Below, piece by piece: positions 9,872 to 17,626 of a DNA stretch of 64,000 nt. Every line of letters begins with the position of its first letter. The first letter of the stretch is position 1. The stretch lies in NCBI RefSeq assembly GCF_018145875.1, contig NZ_JAGSSV010000002.1:186001-250000 (forward strand). The letters run 5' to 3'. Both the position numbers and the translations under genes were made by a program. The notes below the pieces were generated by a model that did no database searches, had not been told where the DNA came from, and worked only from the letters and a program-made list of their open reading frames with translations. The stretch comes from Marinomonas vulgaris (lineage in GTDB: Bacteria > Pseudomonadota > Gammaproteobacteria > Pseudomonadales > Marinomonadaceae).

Positions 9872-10567
9872 TTATTTTTTAATCAGCAGATCTTCTAGCT
9901 TCAAACCTGTTGCTTGTTTAATGCTGCGCAGTAGGTAGTAAAAAATAGCCATCATCATCACCATGGAAGGAATGGCGATCATAGGGTAACTGTATAGGGT
10001 CATTTGCCCTAACTCCTCATTAAACGCTTCGGTACCGGCTGGACTGGTCACTAACCATTTTGCCAGAATGTAATTCATGGTGGCAGAAAACGCGAAAGAG
10101 CCAGTAATAAAGTAGGTGGCTGTCATCAGCCTCTTTTCAAACAGTTCTGAACTGTTATTTTCTTCGAGTTTCTGCTTTATCATCTCCACATCCATAATGG
10201 ACGCATTGAAAAATAAGGCTCTGACCAAGGGGTAGGGGGTAAAGGTTGAGATTAAAACCGCCACGCCAATAATCGCAGGAATTGCTGCTTCTTTAATCGC
10301 GAGCCATTTATTGTCTAACTCGAATAAACCAATGCTACCAGTTAAAAATACGCTGACGATGCCTAGTAAAGCGATAAAGTTAAACTTTTTATATTTGATT
10401 AATTCGAACACACCCCAGCCAAAAGGAAAGGCCAGCGCCAACATAAGACCACCGCTTACGCCTAAAGCGTCTTCACCACTGAGCTTCATCAAAATAAAAG
10501 AAGGTAAAATGACGCTGACAATTAAGTCAACCATAGGACGTGGTTTGTGAGTAGGGGGGTTATTCAT
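9872..10567 (-). CDS. VC0807-family integral membrane protein
   Basis: The open frame reaches 10606, but the ATG at 10567 (MNNPPTHKPRPMVDLIVSVILPSFILM) is preferred because a GGAAA lies upstream and the longer N-terminus is not hydrophobic. The resulting ~231 residues contain about six membrane segments (around 15-32, 35-52, 62-85, 94-115, 148-170 and 195-215). The pattern of a polar KPRP lead, an FPFGWGVFELIKYKK loop and a central cytoplasmic helix rich in Glu and Lys resembles the VC0807 family, whose function is unknown. It appears monocistronic. Confidence 0.75.
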   Translation of the reverse strand: MNNPPTHKPRPMVDLIVSVILPSFILMKLSGEDALGVSGGLMLALAFPFGWGVFELIKYKKFNFIALLGIVSVFLTGSIGLFELDNKWLAIKEAAIPAIIGVAVLISTFTPYPLVRALFFNASIMDVEMIKQKLEENNSSELFEKRLMTATYFITGSFAFSATMNYILAKWLVTSPAGTEAFNEELGQMTLYSYPMIAIPSMVMMMAIFYYLLRSIKQATGLKLEDLLIKK

Positions 10568-10815
10568 AATAAAACGTTTCCAAAAAAGTTCAGGGGTACA
10601 GGGCAACTATCATAGAGCAAAAAATACCATAAGTTACAGAGTATCTATGAGTTTTTCTCGTCAAAATTAAGGGGTTAAAAGGTATTCAATGATTTTACTG
10701 TAAAAATGCTGTGCTGCGGCCGTCATTGGTTTCTTGAATAAAGCCAATAGCTTGATAAGTAAGCTTAATCTCAATATATTAGATGAACCTTAATTAACTT
10801 CTATGAGAGTACATC

Positions 10816-11160
10816 ATGCAATATACCCCAAAATTCCAAGCCATGGCCGATGCCGCTCAAGCCAAAGCCGAAGGCATTGAGCCAAGTTCTGTTAACGAGC
10901 GCATAGCAAATGGTGCGATTGCGCTAGACATTCGTGATCCTGATGAGCATGCGAAAAGCCACATTGAAGGTTCGTTAAACATCAGTCGCGGAAAACTAGA
11001 AATGATCGTGGAAGACAAAATTCCAGACTTAGAAACGGAAATTTTGTGCTACTGCAATGCTAATAACCGTGGCGCTTTGTCTGCCGCATCACTTAAAGAT
11101 ATGGGCTATGTAAATGCTAAATACGTGGCAGGTGGATTAAACGCGTATAAGGCGTTGTAA
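10816..11160 (+). CDS. Rhodanese-like domain protein
   Basis: 114 residues. Residues 20-114 form a single rhodanese domain: ALDIRDPDEHAKSHIEGSLNI is the conserved first half and YVAGGLNAYK the C-terminal signature. The active-site loop reads Cys80-N-A-N-N-R-G instead of the usual C-R-x-G-x-R-S. The nucleophile position and the Arg are kept, the loop Gly is replaced by Asn, and a second Cys (Cys78) sits two residues before. It could transfer sulfane sulfur or bind other thiophilic groups. There is no signal peptide, so it is cytoplasmic. A strong terminator follows. Confidence 0.88.
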   Translation: MQYTPKFQAMADAAQAKAEGIEPSSVNERIANGAIALDIRDPDEHAKSHIEGSLNISRGKLEMIVEDKIPDLETEILCYCNANNRGALSAASLKDMGYVNAKYVAGGLNAYKAL

Positions 11161-11250: not shown

Positions 11251-11994
11251 TTAAGCTTTGTGAAGTGTCCGTTGGAATAGCGCGACTGCTTTTGCGTAGC
11301 ATTCAAGTGCCAATGCAGGGTCGTACCTATCACCTTCATCACGCATAAAGGCGTGTTGTCCGTTTACTTCTTGCCAAGTGAAATTGCGGTTCGTGTCGAT
11401 CAATTGCTGGTAGATTTTTTGGCGGCCTTCGGTCGGAACATGAGGGTCTTGCTTACCCCACACAAGAGCGATTTCCCCTTGAATGTCTTTAGTGCGCATA
11501 AAAGAATCGTTACCTTCTTGGCATGGTATAGTGTTGGAGTGAATGTCCGTGGCATACAAGCAGAAAGCCGCTTGGATTCGAGGGTTTAACGCCGCGCGGT
11601 AGGCCAAATGTCCGCCTAAACACACACCCATACTGCCAAATTGTCCTGTGCAATAGGTCTTTTGTTCGAAATATTCGATCATGGCTATTGTGTCACTGTC
11701 GTGTGCTTCCAGTGTTTTGGTGAATTTATCGGCGTTACCCTTATCTTTCCCTGCATCGTCATAACCCAGCACTGTGCCGATTGGGTTTAGTTCGTGGAAC
11801 ACTTCGGGCACAATGACCACAAAACCATGGCCTGCCATGATAGCGGCTGAGCGCGCAATGGGCGCAGTTTGTTGGAAAATTTCAGAATAGAAAAAGACGC
11901 AAGGGAATTTACCCTCTGCTTGAGGGCGATAAACGGTGCAGCGCATAGTGCCTGTTGGGGTGTCGATGTCTTGATCGTGACGTTGAATGATCAT
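11251..11994 (-). CDS. Dienelactone hydrolase family protein
   Basis: 247 residues, alpha/beta hydrolase. Cys125 lies in the nucleophile elbow GVCLGG, Asp183 in WGKQDPHVP and His214 in NGQHAFMRDE, forming the Cys-Asp-His triad of dienelactone hydrolases. Glu38 (FYSEIF) matches the glutamate that activates the Cys. Characterised relatives hydrolyse dienelactone in chlorocatechol degradation, but no aromatic-degradation genes are nearby, so the substrate is unknown. The gene is divergent from the glycosyltransferase gene, 52 bp away. Confidence 0.92.
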   Translation of the reverse strand: MIIQRHDQDIDTPTGTMRCTVYRPQAEGKFPCVFFYSEIFQQTAPIARSAAIMAGHGFVVIVPEVFHELNPIGTVLGYDDAGKDKGNADKFTKTLEAHDSDTIAMIEYFEQKTYCTGQFGSMGVCLGGHLAYRAALNPRIQAAFCLYATDIHSNTIPCQEGNDSFMRTKDIQGEIALVWGKQDPHVPTEGRQKIYQQLIDTNRNFTWQEVNGQHAFMRDEGDRYDPALALECYAKAVALFQRTLHKA

Positions 11995-12046: not shown

Positions 12047-13231
12047 ATGAGCCAGCCACAAAAGCACATTTTACCGACTAAATTTTTTGCAAATAACAAA
12101 GAGAACCCTGTGCGAATTTTATTGATCAGTGCCTACGAAGCCAGCAGTCACAAAGCGTGGTCTGATACCTTAATGACGGGGTTAAATCAGCACGAATGGA
12201 CCTATTTGTCTTTGCCAGCGCGACATTTTGCGTGGCGCATTCGCGGGAATGCCATGAGTTTTGCTTTTGACCCTCAGAATAAACCCACATTAGACGCTGG
12301 TTACGACCTGGTTATCGCCACCTCGATGACCGACGTGGTCGGCTTGAAAGCCTTTTGTCCCGCTTTGCAGTCCCTTCCGTGGTTGCTGTATTTTCATGAA
12401 AATCAATTTGCTTACCCTGCCAACGACAAACAGCAAGGCTTGGTAGAGATGCAAATGGTGACTTTGTACAGTGCGTTGGCGGCTGATCAATGTGTCTTTA
12501 ACAGCGTGTTTAATAAACACACATTTTTTGCCGGTGCGCGAGCGTTACTGAAAAAGCTGCCCGATTTTGTGTCGCCAAGCTGGCTTGATAAAGTGGAATC
12601 TAAAGCCGATGTGTTGCCTGTGCCTTTAGAAATACCTCAAGCTACCCTGTCGTCCCCATTTGCTCCAAACTCAATACCAAACATAGAGTCACCGATTAAA
12701 CTCGTCTGGTCGGCACGTTGGGAATTCGACAAAGGCCCAGAGCGTCTCTTCGCCATTCTCAAGGAATTGCAGCGACGAGGGGTTAAGTTTGAAATAGCTA
12801 TTTTGGGAGAACAATTTCGCACCACGCCGCCAATATTTGCACAAATACACGCTGAGTTTAGCGACCAAATCTCCCAATTTGGCTTTGCCCCCAGCCGGGC
12901 GGATTATCTGTCGTTTTTATCCTCGTCTCACATGGTGCTGTCCACGGCATTGCATGAATTTCAAGGTTTGTCCGTACTTGAAGCCGTCGCGTTAGGCTGT
13001 CTGCCCGTGCTGCCTAACAGACAGGTATACCCAGAATTGTTTGAGCCGCCATTTCTCTATCAAAGTCACATTGAAGACATAGCGCAGGAAGCCAAAGGGG
13101 CGGTAGACCGGATACTTGAGTTATCGTCAGCACCACTACGTAAGCCAGATGTCGCCCATTATTACGCTGAAAATTTGCTGCTGAAATACGACGTTTTACT
13201 GCAACAGCTGACGACACAAGGAGCCAGTTGA
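12047..13231 (+). CDS. GTDC1/QTMAN-like glycosyltransferase (probable tRNA-queuosine mannosyltransferase)
   Basis: 394 residues, GT-B fold of GT4 type. The N-terminal domain (about 22-195) matches the DUF3524 family that includes human GTDC1/QTMAN: the LLISAYEASSHKAW, LPARHFAWRIRG, YFHENQFAYP and CVFNSVFN blocks are characteristic. The C-terminal domain has SARWEFDKGPE and HEFQGLSVLEAVALGCLPVLP, the usual donor-sugar region. The eukaryotic relative mannosylates queuosine at position 34 of tRNA-Asp from GDP-mannose. The same role is plausible here but unproven. GTG at 12110 is an alternative start closer to the conserved core. The stop overlaps the next gene by 4 nt. Confidence 0.85.
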   Translation: MSQPQKHILPTKFFANNKENPVRILLISAYEASSHKAWSDTLMTGLNQHEWTYLSLPARHFAWRIRGNAMSFAFDPQNKPTLDAGYDLVIATSMTDVVGLKAFCPALQSLPWLLYFHENQFAYPANDKQQGLVEMQMVTLYSALAADQCVFNSVFNKHTFFAGARALLKKLPDFVSPSWLDKVESKADVLPVPLEIPQATLSSPFAPNSIPNIESPIKLVWSARWEFDKGPERLFAILKELQRRGVKFEIAILGEQFRTTPPIFAQIHAEFSDQISQFGFAPSRADYLSFLSSSHMVLSTALHEFQGLSVLEAVALGCLPVLPNRQVYPELFEPPFLYQSHIEDIAQEAKGAVDRILELSSAPLRKPDVAHYYAENLLLKYDVLLQQLTTQGAS

Positions 13232-13968
13232 TGATGTTTTCTTTGTCGTATGGTCGTGTTTATTTACCGGTTTTTTTCGTGCTTTGGCTTGGGTTATTGT
13301 TAGACAGCGACACCATGGCGATGCGTATAGAACAAGGCCAATCGATCACCAATGGCTTGGTGTTGGCGTGCTTTGTTTGGGTATATTGGCAAGTCAGCCA
13401 TAGAATTAAAAAGTTGATGCTCTACGGCGTCGGCCTCGCATACCTTGGGGAAGTCGTATTTGCACTCTGGTTGGGTATGTATGAGTACCGGCTCGGCAAT
13501 GTGCCTTTTTATGTGCCACTTGGGCACAGCTTGGTTTACGCCGCGGTATTTTATCTCCATAAAGAAAGGTGTGTTCAAAAGTACAAAAAGCCGTTGACCA
13601 CCATTTTGTATGGCGTAATGGTGGTCTATTCGAGCCTTTGGTTATGGCTTGATCAAGACCGTTTTGGCTTTTTATGTACCTTGGTTATTCTGTTATTGCT
13701 AAGAAAGAAAACCGGCTATGAACTCTTCTTTCTTATCATGTTTTTTATGGTGGTGTACCTAGAACTCTTAGGAACGTATTTTGGCAGCTGGACATGGCCA
13801 GATACTTGGTTTGCAACCGTGTCATTTATCACCAGCAGCAACCCACCCAGCGGCATCAGCATGTTTTATTTTGGCTTCGACATTGGCTGTTTGTGGCTTT
13901 ATAAACAATTCAACAAACCACAGTGGCATCGAATGAAACGACTCAGAGCTCTGAAGCGCGCTGTATAA
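13228..13968 (+). CDS. Polytopic membrane protein of unknown function
   Basis: 246 residues with about seven hydrophobic segments and few charges outside the ends. Conserved-looking polar spots within the membrane part include GNVPFYVPLGHSLVY (about 88-102), YLELLGTYFGSWTWPDTWF (about 178-196) and NPPSGIS (about 205-211). His, Glu and Tyr within such segments suggest a catalytic or transport site rather than a simple anchor. I do not recognise the family. The ATG overlaps the stop of the queuosine-mannosyltransferase-like gene by 4 nt, so the two are translationally coupled and probably functionally linked. It might handle a lipid or sugar donor, but that is conjecture. Confidence 0.8.
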   Translation: MMMFSLSYGRVYLPVFFVLWLGLLLDSDTMAMRIEQGQSITNGLVLACFVWVYWQVSHRIKKLMLYGVGLAYLGEVVFALWLGMYEYRLGNVPFYVPLGHSLVYAAVFYLHKERCVQKYKKPLTTILYGVMVVYSSLWLWLDQDRFGFLCTLVILLLLRKKTGYELFFLIMFFMVVYLELLGTYFGSWTWPDTWFATVSFITSSNPPSGISMFYFGFDIGCLWLYKQFNKPQWHRMKRLRALKRAV

Positions 13969-13990: not shown

Positions 13991-14018
13991 AAAGCGCCAC
14001 CCAATCAGGTGGCTTTTT
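13991..14018. terminator. Terminator between the convergent membrane-protein and ynjD genes
   Basis: GCCACC (13996-14001) pairs with GGTGGC (14008-14013), flanked by AAAA and TTTTT. The stem covers the last bases of the minus-strand ATPase gene. Confidence 0.8.
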
Positions 14019-14640
14019 CCAGTTCCAAACACTTGCCTTGCATGGCTTTGGCGTCTTCTGAATCGTGAGTAACCAGTAATGCAGGGATGTTGGCGTGGCG
14101 TATTTCGGCCAGCACGAAGGCGCGCACGTCCCGTCGTAGGGCGGGGTCGAGTTTGCTAAAAGGCTCGTCTAGCAGCAGATAATCTGGTTTTGAAAGCAAG
14201 GTACGAAGTAAGGCGACACGGGCTTGTTGTCCGCCAGATAATTCCTTCGGCAGTGCGTTGGCTTTGTCGGGTATGCCGAGCTTTTCCAGCGCCTGTTGCG
14301 CCATTTTGTGGCGCTGCTCAGGTGGAATGTCTTCGGCAATGGCAAACAGTAGGTTTTCCAAAATGCTCATGTGTGGAAACAGCAAGGGCATCTGCTGCAA
14401 CAAGCCGACTCGCCTAGCCGTCGTAGGCTTACCGTGAAGCGCCGTATCATTCAAAAAGGCTTCCCCTGTCGCGGTGAGGCTTTGGTGTAAAGTGCCACTC
14501 AAAAAGTGCAACAAGCTGGATTTACCAATACCGCTTGGCCCCATAATGGACAGCACCTGGCCATTGTCGATGTCGAAACTCACGTGTTGAATCAGTCGTT
14601 TATCTTTAAGGGATAAGCAGAAGTCTTTTACGATTAGCAC
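14005..14640 (-). CDS. ynjD: ABC transporter ATPase, YnjD-like
   Basis: 211 residues. Walker A GPSGIGKSS (about 34-42), signature LSGGQQARVALLR, Walker B DYLLLDEPFSKLD and an H-loop VTHDSED. It is short, like E. coli YnjD and the thiamine-type ATPases. Its start overlaps the end of the permease gene by 7 nt. With YnjB and YnjC it should form an importer. The E. coli system has no firmly established substrate; similarity to thiamine/iron-type transporters (ThiBPQ, FbpABC) is all that can be said. Confidence 0.93.
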   Translation of the reverse strand: MLIVKDFCLSLKDKRLIQHVSFDIDNGQVLSIMGPSGIGKSSLLHFLSGTLHQSLTATGEAFLNDTALHGKPTTARRVGLLQQMPLLFPHMSILENLLFAIAEDIPPEQRHKMAQQALEKLGIPDKANALPKELSGGQQARVALLRTLLSKPDYLLLDEPFSKLDPALRRDVRAFVLAEIRHANIPALLVTHDSEDAKAMQGKCLELEKAT

Positions 14641-16385
14641 TGGGTGTCCTTTTTGAAGAAAAAGTGTTTGCTACGAATGACGCACTGTTTGATGAAGAGA
14701 CGCCATCTTGTCCAACGACGAGGAATAAATTGTGCGAGCCAAAACACCAATATGGGGAAGAAAGCTTGCAACATGGCCATGCTGCCCACTTGCTTACGAT
14801 CGCCAGAGGCAGCTTGCGCAACGGCTTCGGTAGTGAGTGTGCTGTAGCGGCCTTCGCCAGCAATGAGCGTTGGCAGGTATTGCGCAATACTGACCGAGAA
14901 ACCAATGGCGAATGCGGTAAACATCGCGGGTTTGAGCATGGCGATTTTGATGCCGAGGTAATTTCGCCAAGGCCGATAATGGATGCGGTTCGCCTGTTGC
15001 AAATAGCCTTCTTCGTAGCTCAGATAAGGGCCCTTGAGGGTTAAGTAGACATAGGGCAGCACGTACATCAGATGCAGAGCAATAATGGCACAAAGGTCGC
15101 CGTTGAGTTCCAAGTAAATCAGTAAAACATGCAAGCCAAACAAGAAGCCAATCTGCGGCAGCAAAATCGGTACATAAATCAACCAATCGAATAAATGGTT
15201 TTTCGTGTGCTGATGTTGCTTGTCCATATCCTGACGTTTGGTTTCCAGCATGATCAGGCTAATAGCGCACGCCAGTAAGGTAGACAAAAACGCGATTAAC
15301 AGCGTGTTTGTCGTGAGTTCCAGTAACAATGGGCCCGCACGTTCAAGATTGCTAAGCGTCCATTGGCTTGGCAAGGCATCGGGAAAACGCCAGCGTCGAG
15401 CCAAAGACCATATCGGCAACAATACCAGAGCAACAAAGCCATTCAGCAACGCCAATAACCCAACAATAACACCTAAGCGTAGTAAGTTGTCGCTCAAACC
15501 GGCGCGTTTGCCGTTGCTACGCTCGGAACGAGTGATTTTGCTGGTCAGTTTGTGGCTCAACTCCCAGCCTGCCAACACAGACACCACGCACAACATAAGA
15601 AATACGGCCCCAGCGCTGGCCATGAATCGCATCGACAGATCTGGGTTGTTAAACCAGCGCAATAAAGTAACCGCTAAGGTAGAGGGTGTGTTGGGGCCAA
15701 TGACCAGTGCCAAATCCACCACGGTAAGACTAAAGGCCACGACAATAAAAATCGGCAAACGCACAATAGGGTATAACTGCGGGATCAAGACTTTACGCCA
15801 CAAGGTAAAACGGCTGTAGCCAAGGGCCTGTCCTACCTGCAAGCTTTCACGAGCCTTAATGCTTTTCATGGTGGTGAGCATGACAAACAACAAATAAGGC
15901 ATTTCTTTGATCACCAAGGCGATAATCAAAGACACGCCGTAAGGGTCTTGTACGCTGATCCAATTAGGTGGTCGTTCAAATCCAGTTAACCAAGGGCTAA
16001 AAACCCGCACCAACCAGCCCGAAGGACTGAGCAAAAACAGCAAACCAATAGCGATGGCCGCATGGGGAATGGCCAACAAGGGCGACAGCAAGGCTTCTAT
16101 TTTAGTAAAAAAAGGTCGCTGATAGCCCCACGCTAACAATGATAACGCCAGCCATAAAGACAAAATAGGCGCGCCAATGCCGGTGATCAGAGTTAACTTC
16201 AGGCTGGCGTAAAACTCGCCGTGGGAAAATAAATCTCGCCATGGTGACAACGACAGTTGATATTCACCCAGTGGCGGGAAATATTGAAAGGCAGGCAATA
16301 AGGTACCGATGAGACCAATGGCAATGGGGATCATCAGTACCAAAGCCATTACCCAAGTAATAAGGCGTGTGTGAATTAGGGGCAT
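14634..16385 (-). CDS. ynjC: ABC transporter fused permease, YnjC-like
   Basis: 583 residues with about 12 membrane segments in two homologous halves, each carrying a binding-protein-dependent permease loop (about 160-215 and 430-500; YLQQANRIHYRPWRNYLGIKI in the second). Such double permeases (ThiP, FbpB, YnjC) need no second subunit. It lies 26 nt downstream of the binding-protein gene and overlaps the ATPase gene, so the three form one operon on the minus strand. Confidence 0.93.
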   Translation of the reverse strand: MPLIHTRLITWVMALVLMIPIAIGLIGTLLPAFQYFPPLGEYQLSLSPWRDLFSHGEFYASLKLTLITGIGAPILSLWLALSLLAWGYQRPFFTKIEALLSPLLAIPHAAIAIGLLFLLSPSGWLVRVFSPWLTGFERPPNWISVQDPYGVSLIIALVIKEMPYLLFVMLTTMKSIKARESLQVGQALGYSRFTLWRKVLIPQLYPIVRLPIFIVVAFSLTVVDLALVIGPNTPSTLAVTLLRWFNNPDLSMRFMASAGAVFLMLCVVSVLAGWELSHKLTSKITRSERSNGKRAGLSDNLLRLGVIVGLLALLNGFVALVLLPIWSLARRWRFPDALPSQWTLSNLERAGPLLLELTTNTLLIAFLSTLLACAISLIMLETKRQDMDKQHQHTKNHLFDWLIYVPILLPQIGFLFGLHVLLIYLELNGDLCAIIALHLMYVLPYVYLTLKGPYLSYEEGYLQQANRIHYRPWRNYLGIKIAMLKPAMFTAFAIGFSVSIAQYLPTLIAGEGRYSTLTTEAVAQAASGDRKQVGSMAMLQAFFPILVFWLAQFIPRRWTRWRLFIKQCVIRSKHFFFKKDTQC

Positions 16386-16411
16386 TTTACTTCTTAGTCA
16401 GTGGTTGGCGA

Positions 16412-17626
16412 TTATTGTGCGTAACGCTCACGCCATTCTTTTTCTAAAGCGGTCACCCAGCTGCTATGAGGTTCAGGCAGTGTTTGTCCAAGCTCCTCAA
16501 TACTTAAGGTGGCAATACCACGGGGAATAGTGTCGAAGGCTTGTTGCTGTTCCTTGGACAATTTCGCATAGGACAAGACACTTAAATCGCCCCAAACAGT
16601 GGGGTTTTGTTTGCGAATTTGCGCCTCGGGAGACAACATAAAGTTGGCTACTACTTGAGCGCCCGCTTTGGCGCTGCTGTTGTAAGGAATGGCCAAAAAG
16701 TGCGTATTGCCAATGGTGCCTTTAGTAAACACATAAGAACGAACCGAGTCTGGCAAATTGCCGCGGTCGATTTGTATCGACGCCGCTGAAATGTCAAAGC
16801 TCAACGCCACGTCGATTTCCTGATCGTCGAGCAAACGCATCATTTCTTCAGAACTGGAAGGAAAGGTTTGGCCGTTGCGCCACGCCACTTGATGCAGCTG
16901 ATCCAAATACGCCCATAAAGGCGCGGTAACAGCGTGAAAATCTACTTGATCGACAGGGTTGGATAACAAGCTGGTATCAGGTGTTAACTCATGCAGCGCT
17001 TGTTTTAGAAACGTGGAGCCTAAAAACTGCGGCGGCTCTGGGTAGGTAATTCGGCCTGGGTTGGCTTGGGCATAACTAAGTAGCTCATTCATGGATTTAG
17101 GCGGCGTTGCTAAGGTTTCGGTATCGTGCATGAAAATCACCTGTGCCATGCCCCAAGGCGACTCCATGCCATCAACAGGCGTACCAAAATCTTGGGTCAA
17201 ACTTTGACGAGCGGACTCGTCGACGTAATGAGCATAGTTAGGCAAATTGTGGCTAAAAGGCCCAAACAGCAATGCGTTGTCTTTCATGGCACGAAAGTTT
17301 TCACCGTTTAACCAAATAAGATCAATGGAGCCTTCACTGTTTTTGCCTGCGGCTTTTTCGGCCAATACACGGTTCACCGCATCGGACGCGTCGGTCAGTT
17401 TTACCTGCTTGAGCGTCACGTCGTATTCTTGTTCAATACGATCGGCTGCCCATTGAATGTAATCGTTGATATTATCGGCGCCACCCCACGCATTAAAATA
17501 CACGGTTTGGCCTTTGGCTTGTTCAAGTGTTTGTTGCCATTGGTCGTTGCTGGTGACGGCCAAAGCGGACACGCTTGAGAGCATAAAAGCGGCGGCCATT
17601 GACGCAGCGATAAAGGTTTTTTTCAT
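16412..17626 (-). CDS. ynjB: ABC transporter substrate-binding protein, YnjB-like
   Basis: 404 residues. Signal peptide 1-23 ends at SALA. FNAWGGADNINDYIQWA, VNRVLAEKAAGKN, DLIWLNGENFRAMK and SPWGMAQVIF match YnjB-type periplasmic binding proteins closely. It is the first gene of the operon ynjBCD. The promoter should lie in the 186-bp gap shared with the divergent deacylase gene. I saw no THI-box riboswitch there, so thiamine control is not supported. Confidence 0.94.
   Translation of the reverse strand: MKKTFIAASMAAAFMLSSVSALAVTSNDQWQQTLEQAKGQTVYFNAWGGADNINDYIQWAADRIEQEYDVTLKQVKLTDASDAVNRVLAEKAAGKNSEGSIDLIWLNGENFRAMKDNALLFGPFSHNLPNYAHYVDESARQSLTQDFGTPVDGMESPWGMAQVIFMHDTETLATPPKSMNELLSYAQANPGRITYPEPPQFLGSTFLKQALHELTPDTSLLSNPVDQVDFHAVTAPLWAYLDQLHQVAWRNGQTFPSSSEEMMRLLDDQEIDVALSFDISAASIQIDRGNLPDSVRSYVFTKGTIGNTHFLAIPYNSSAKAGAQVVANFMLSPEAQIRKQNPTVWGDLSVLSYAKLSKEQQQAFDTIPRGIATLSIEELGQTLPEPHSSWVTALEKEWRERYAQ

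Follow-up and report, generated by a model that had tools for sequence, protein, structure and literature searches.

QTMAN (GTDC1) is the tRNA-queuosine alpha-mannosyltransferase of animals, which uses GDP-mannose to attach mannose to Q34 of tRNA-Asp; the QTMAN family takes its name from this animal enzyme. Sugar-bearing queuosine (Q) has been described for animals. The glycosyltransferase family to which QTGAL (B3GNTL1), the tRNA-queuosine galactosyltransferase, belongs differs from that of QTMAN. The queuosine of tRNA-Asp is glutamylated by GluQRS (YadB), the glutamyl-queuosine tRNA-Asp synthetase. GluQRS is a paralogue of glutamyl-tRNA synthetase and, to our knowledge, is absent from animals. 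According to one report, galactose is carried by the Q of tRNA-Tyr (PMC12518689).

In a 2025 review of modifications in bacterial tRNA, one passage lists Q34 and GluQ34; neither of the stems 'mannos' and 'galactos' is present in the text of the review (PMC12548931). No paper on a bacterial QTMAN or its product was found in the literature search, most subscription journals being beyond its scope. The enzyme described here is a bacterial member of this known family, the bacterial product of which is unreported in the literature searched.

The analysed stretch of DNA (64 000 nucleotides; hereafter the window) comes from Marinomonas vulgaris (positions 186001-250000 of contig NZ_JAGSSV010000002.1, assembly GCF_018145875.1). 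The genome holding it is denoted G000 and comprises 3.45 Mb. The features of the locus are as follows.

11251..11994, - strand: dienelactone-hydrolase-family gene, divergent from QTMAN (PF01738, E 2.6e-20).
12047..13231, + strand: QTMAN-like GT4 glycosyltransferase gene, 394 aa from ATG 12047 (PF12038, PF00534 and an alignment of 20 bacterial members).
12956..12982, + strand: codons of the GT4 E-x7-E (E304-E312, EFQGLSVLE; alignment of 20 bacterial QTMAN members).
13218..13223, + strand: AAGGAG, which probably serves the membrane-protein gene as its ribosome-binding site and is placed 7 nt upstream of ATG 13231 (from reading of the sequence).
13228..13968, + strand: membrane-protein gene (MEMB), 246 aa from TTG 13228; ATG 13231 or 13234 is the likelier start.

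The glycosyltransferase and its gene

The ORF at 12047-13231 was compared with Pfam. It matched QTMAN_N (PF12038) over the whole profile (1-168 of 168; 183.7 bits, E 3.2e-54; cut-off 25 bits), and Glycos_transf_1 (PF00534) was found in its C-terminal part (36.9 bits, E 3.3e-9; cut-off 26.4 bits). E-x7-E is the signature of GT4; among the 20 aligned bacterial members its first place is E or D and its second (E312) is invariant. The original prediction of a glycosyltransferase of the QTMAN kind was borne out by the full-profile match together with the GT4 domain and its E-x7-E. The alignment contains 31 invariant columns, which include HENQ (117-120), H303 and E312. W221, R224, W225, D228 and K229 of the sequence WxxRWxxDK (221-229) are also invariant in the 20 members. 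A search of the PDB with the QTMAN profile at E <= 1e-5 gave a single relative, 5i45 (36 bits), which was matched in the C-terminal half only. Translation may alternatively begin at GTG 12110 to give a protein of 373 aa, because the relatives at loci L057 and L059 comprise 373 aa and begin there.

Internal stops were observed in two QTMAN genes, one in a Marinomonas genome (G010:C1:2059764-2060279) and the other, which is also incomplete, in a further class genome (G107:C30:38780-39142); each is a pseudogene or a sequencing error. Two long frames (726 and 707 aa) were rejected by eye as QTMAN fusions. The actual QTMAN ORF comprises 412 aa in one, and the additional ~300 N-terminal residues of the other resemble noise in GC-rich DNA. 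QTMAN was matched by five phage records, in the C-terminal GT part only, and in the one record inspected the glycosyltransferase follows a gene annotated as GlcNAc-malate deacetylase. Viral contigs gave one match, also C-terminal, and no QTMAN match was obtained with plasmids.

Gene neighbourhoods were mapped for 43 QTMAN loci, one of which (L144) was left out as it contained no QTMAN ORF. QTMAN is solo in the remaining 42: of the genes up to five places away, none is shared by more than three of the 21 family groups. The widest recurrences, in three groups each, are those of a quinone-oxidoreductase-like gene (four loci) and an M18-aminopeptidase-like gene (three loci), and a TadA-like gene lies within five genes of QTMAN in two of the 42 loci; all three labels are presumptive. 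The neighbourhood of QTMAN gives almost no hint of work on tRNA. A rhodanese-domain gene is found near QTMAN at seven loci from two groups, the window included. In six distant genomes (L177-L180, L182 and L183) it is two genes away from QTMAN, and in the window (10816-11160) it is on the opposite side.

The divergent dienelactone-hydrolase-family gene is conserved beside QTMAN at each of the other 19 Marinomonas loci of QTMAN that were mapped. Two genomes from a different bacterial family (L104:6182-6952 and L105) also have such a gene directly before the membrane gene; its occurrence beside both genes is probably due to chance because the family is common. A VC0807-family protein is encoded in the window at 9872-10606 on the - strand (NF041646, 180 bits).

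Queuosine genes and the acceptor of the enzyme

Queuosine-synthesis genes, which the predicted function presupposes in the host, were found in G000, where QueA scored 502 bits and QueG 489 bits. QueA was over its cut-off in all 39 QTMAN genomes tested (22/22 and 17/17), which is weak evidence because queuosine synthesis is widespread among the sampled groups (all 56 relatives, with or without QTMAN, gave QueG scores over the cut-off). In one Marinomonas genome QueG consists of two overlapping pieces with internal stops (G011:C33:13759-14768), owing to a sequencing error or a broken gene.

QTMAN_N was matched in the genomes of 35 of the 56 relatives. GluQRS was over its cut-off of 276.7 bits in 53 of the 56, including all 35 with QTMAN, and scored 309.8 bits in G000. 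Replacement of GluQRS by QTMAN was rejected, the two being found to coexist. In the class sample, GluQRS reached at least 300 bits in 18 of 21 QTMAN-bearing genomes versus 32 of 56 QTMAN-free genomes (every sixth of 347; Fisher p 0.03), the reverse of what exclusion would give. The excess is not significant among larger, more complete genomes (17/19 versus 29/36, p 0.47), a recount from which 22 of the 77 rows were dropped as genomes smaller than 2.3 Mb or less than 90% complete. The three QTMAN-bearing class genomes below 300 bits are G208, in which the hit is cut by a contig end, G387, which is 82% complete, and G131, with 7% contamination, for which the GluQRS search yielded only GluRS-like rows. 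For GluQRS, scores of 343-362 bits were obtained in seven additional genomes with QTMAN from the order and class. The ten more distant QTMAN holders tested in family f221 (by our guess, perhaps Zetaproteobacteria) encode a short GluQRS-like protein that remains below the cut-off (223-244 bits); the f221 rows over the cut-off are long ORFs resembling GluRS.

Since GluQRS and QTMAN are encoded in the same genomes, a bacterial QTMAN would act on another tRNA or another hydroxyl, or would compete with GluQRS. For an enzyme of tRNA-Asp this coexistence is awkward. A further report places manQ on tRNA-Tyr of a mosquito (PMC11705514), and the acceptor tRNA may therefore not be fixed in the QTMAN family. 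We tentatively favour another Q-tRNA, or tRNA-Asp shared with GluQRS, as the acceptor of the bacterial enzyme.

It has also to be considered that the bacterial enzyme glycosylates a target other than queuosine (another nucleoside, a lipid or a small molecule) and that its name has been carried over from the animal branch. Such a target would be consistent with the animal substrate, the Q of tRNA-Asp, being already claimed by GluQRS in 35/35 QTMAN-bearing relatives, and with the patchy distribution of QTMAN, which is present in 22 of the 369 class genomes. It would also agree with the lack of a widely recurring neighbour, none of the neighbours having been recognized as a Q-pathway gene (family scans covered a minority of them). 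The full-length match to the N-terminal domain that defines the family, the many invariant residues and the presence of QueA in every holder tested argue against it, and we regard this explanation as rather unlikely. The favoured substrate of the enzyme is Q34.

The downstream membrane-protein gene

An overlap of 4 nt between QTMAN and the membrane gene had been proposed. It applies if TTG 13228 is the start codon and is lost with the likelier starts, as ATG 13231 forms a 1-nt TGATG junction with the QTMAN stop codon and ATG 13234 gives no overlap. The suggestion that the protein is undescribed was upheld within Pfam and NCBIfam, in which it matched no family at E <= 0.1. Stray weak matches were produced by other members of its family: the 28 members taken together matched 17 Pfam families weakly (E <= 0.5), the best being LptF_LptG (E 6e-4), which was matched by three of the 28. 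INSIG was not among the 17.

A model of the protein was built from the 28 family members (mean pLDDT 89, pTM 0.84). Eight long membrane helices, rather than the seven originally counted, are predicted; three further helices are short, and the one at the C-terminus is basic. The topology was derived from the modelled helices by means of the positive-inside rule, assuming the helix limits of the model. Over the 28 members, Lys and Arg residues number 427 in the inner half versus 71 in the outer half. All 18 invariant residues of the family (Q38, E75, Y87, R88, P93, G99, H100, D144, E179, G182, T183, W188, W190, N205, P206, P207, Y214 and D218) are placed on the outer half of the predicted topology. 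The chance of such an arrangement under random placement is 4e-6, which serves as a guide only because neighbouring residues are not independent and the helix limits are assumed. In this model the conserved site probably faces the periplasm, a position difficult to reconcile with joint action with a tRNA enzyme of the cytoplasm.

Structural comparison using VIA-align gave 4xu6 (MvINS, which we take to be an Insig homologue) as the best match, with a Z score of 8.7 (5.0 for the second-best match) and an r.m.s.d. of 3.9 over 140 residues; a Z score of this size is common for helical bundles and becomes meaningful from about 13. The best E values from Foldseek were 2.5 for the better model and 0.53 for the first model, neither of them to Insig. 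The likeness of the modelled protein to Insig is regarded as a lead only.

A profile scan of named genomes gave 28 loci of the membrane family, 11 in Marinomonas and 17 in other hosts (Psychromonas, Poseidonibacter, Arcobacter, Sulfurimonas, Sulfuricurvum, Sulfurovum, Tenacibaculum and others). The family thus spans Gammaproteobacteria, genomes of Campylobacterales type and Tenacibaculum, and its gene behaves as an orphan without a fixed neighbour. Its neighbours change with lineage, and recurrences are found within Campylobacterota-type genomes or one family. In Poseidonibacter they are an ABC and FtsX-like pair, an M23 gene and DUF188; elsewhere they include a DEAD helicase (Sulfurimonas), EamA (Sulfuricurvum) and RlmN (Tenacibaculum). 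In the window, a three-gene ABC importer is located at 14005-17626 on the - strand, the substrate-binding protein of which matches NCBIfam NF008633 (557 bits).

Among 35 Marinomonas genomes, QTMAN is present in 26 and the membrane gene in 12, all of which hold both. The membrane gene is thus found in 12 of the 26 genomes with QTMAN versus none of the nine without it (Fisher p 0.015), an association that was counted as one event because all 12 share one inherited locus. In each of the 12 the membrane gene is downstream of QTMAN on the same contig and strand, and QTMAN is close to it at each of the 11 Marinomonas loci obtained in the scan of named genomes. This constant order, the absence of the membrane gene from every Marinomonas genome without QTMAN, the direct abutment of the two genes in three of the 12 (the window, L045 and L054) and the TGATG junction in the window are what speak for a functional pair, in which the membrane protein would supply a lipid-linked donor or anchor the enzyme and the product would be a glycosyl-queuosine or another glycoconjugate.

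Direct adjacency is not conserved, however, since one or three genes separate QTMAN from the membrane gene in the other nine genomes. A Gate-domain (nucleoside recognition, PF07670) membrane gene intervenes in 9/12 (for example L050:8210-9589), and a carboxymuconolactone-decarboxylase (CMD)-family gene and an AraC-type regulator additionally intervene in 6/12; the families of these genes were scanned in L050 and the positions were taken from gene maps. At L057 a Gate-domain gene follows QTMAN and the other membrane gene is absent. The membrane gene is missing from 14 of the 26 QTMAN-bearing Marinomonas genomes.

Outside Marinomonas, no QTMAN was found near the membrane gene at any of the 17 loci in the stretch fetched. 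QTMAN_N also had no match in the whole genomes of these 17 holders, in which the positive controls were silent too; the same model had matched the 35 of 56 relatives in a separate search. The expected co-occurrence of the two families across genomes failed to appear: QTMAN was found in 0/25 non-Marinomonas genomes with the membrane gene (the 17 named genomes, those of the class sample and G050), although single absences are soft because at least 13 of the 25 (13 of the 17 named) are uncultured or metagenome assemblies by title. In the 369 class genomes the membrane gene was found in eight and QTMAN in 22, and both were found only in G000. A functional pair was rejected on the basis of this distribution, the intervening genes and the predicted topology, and we consider it very improbable.

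Proposed function and comparison with known systems

What stands of the proposed glycosyl-queuosine pair is a QTMAN-family enzyme in a genome with QueA and QueG; the membrane partner was abandoned, as the two were not found together in the genomes searched outside Marinomonas. The reading that we prefer, and consider fairly probable, is that of a stand-alone Q34 hexosyltransferase with an unrelated membrane neighbour that has its own job. The product of ORF 12047-13231 would be a stand-alone cytoplasmic GT-B (GT4) enzyme of the QTMAN family. Its most likely reaction is the transfer of a hexose, donated by a sugar nucleotide, to a hydroxyl group on the cyclopentenediol of Q34 in one Q-tRNA or another; the sugar is probably mannose and the donor GDP-mannose. 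With GluQRS in the same cell, the enzyme might act on a different Q-tRNA, the obvious candidate being tRNA-Tyr, on the other hydroxyl or on a shared tRNA-Asp. The product of the downstream gene would be an inner-membrane protein with eight helices, from a family not yet described, with a conserved site facing the periplasm and a job of its own. The gene would have arrived beside QTMAN within Marinomonas, and a single arrival is the simplest account.

A wider proposal is that Marinomonas and other Pseudomonadota make hexosyl-Q beside glutamyl-Q, QTMAN acting on a non-Asp Q-tRNA or on a free hydroxyl, so that bacteria too would mark their Q-tRNAs differently. This is a tentative suggestion, to which we give somewhat less than even weight. 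If the bacterial QTMAN has the activity expected from its family, hexosyl-Q extends beyond animals, and the presence of GluQRS and QTMAN in one cell poses the question of which tRNA receives which cap. The membrane protein represents a separate undescribed family, the conserved site of which is probably periplasmic, and is not to be grouped with QTMAN.

The closest structural match to the membrane protein, Insig/MvINS (4xu6; Z 8.7), differs from it in sharing 15% identity and in that INSIG is absent from the Pfam families matched by the 28 members at E <= 0.5. QTGAL resembles QTMAN in transferring a sugar to queuosine. GluQRS resembles it in further modifying Q in bacterial tRNA and is encoded in the same genome, but is an unrelated enzyme that adds glutamate, whereas QTMAN adds a sugar. 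With animal QTMAN (GTDC1) the Marinomonas protein, when compared via the Pfam model, shares the same N-terminal family over its full length, a GT4 C-terminal domain and E-x7-E. The Marinomonas host has queuosine genes, and it differs in that it also carries GluQRS.
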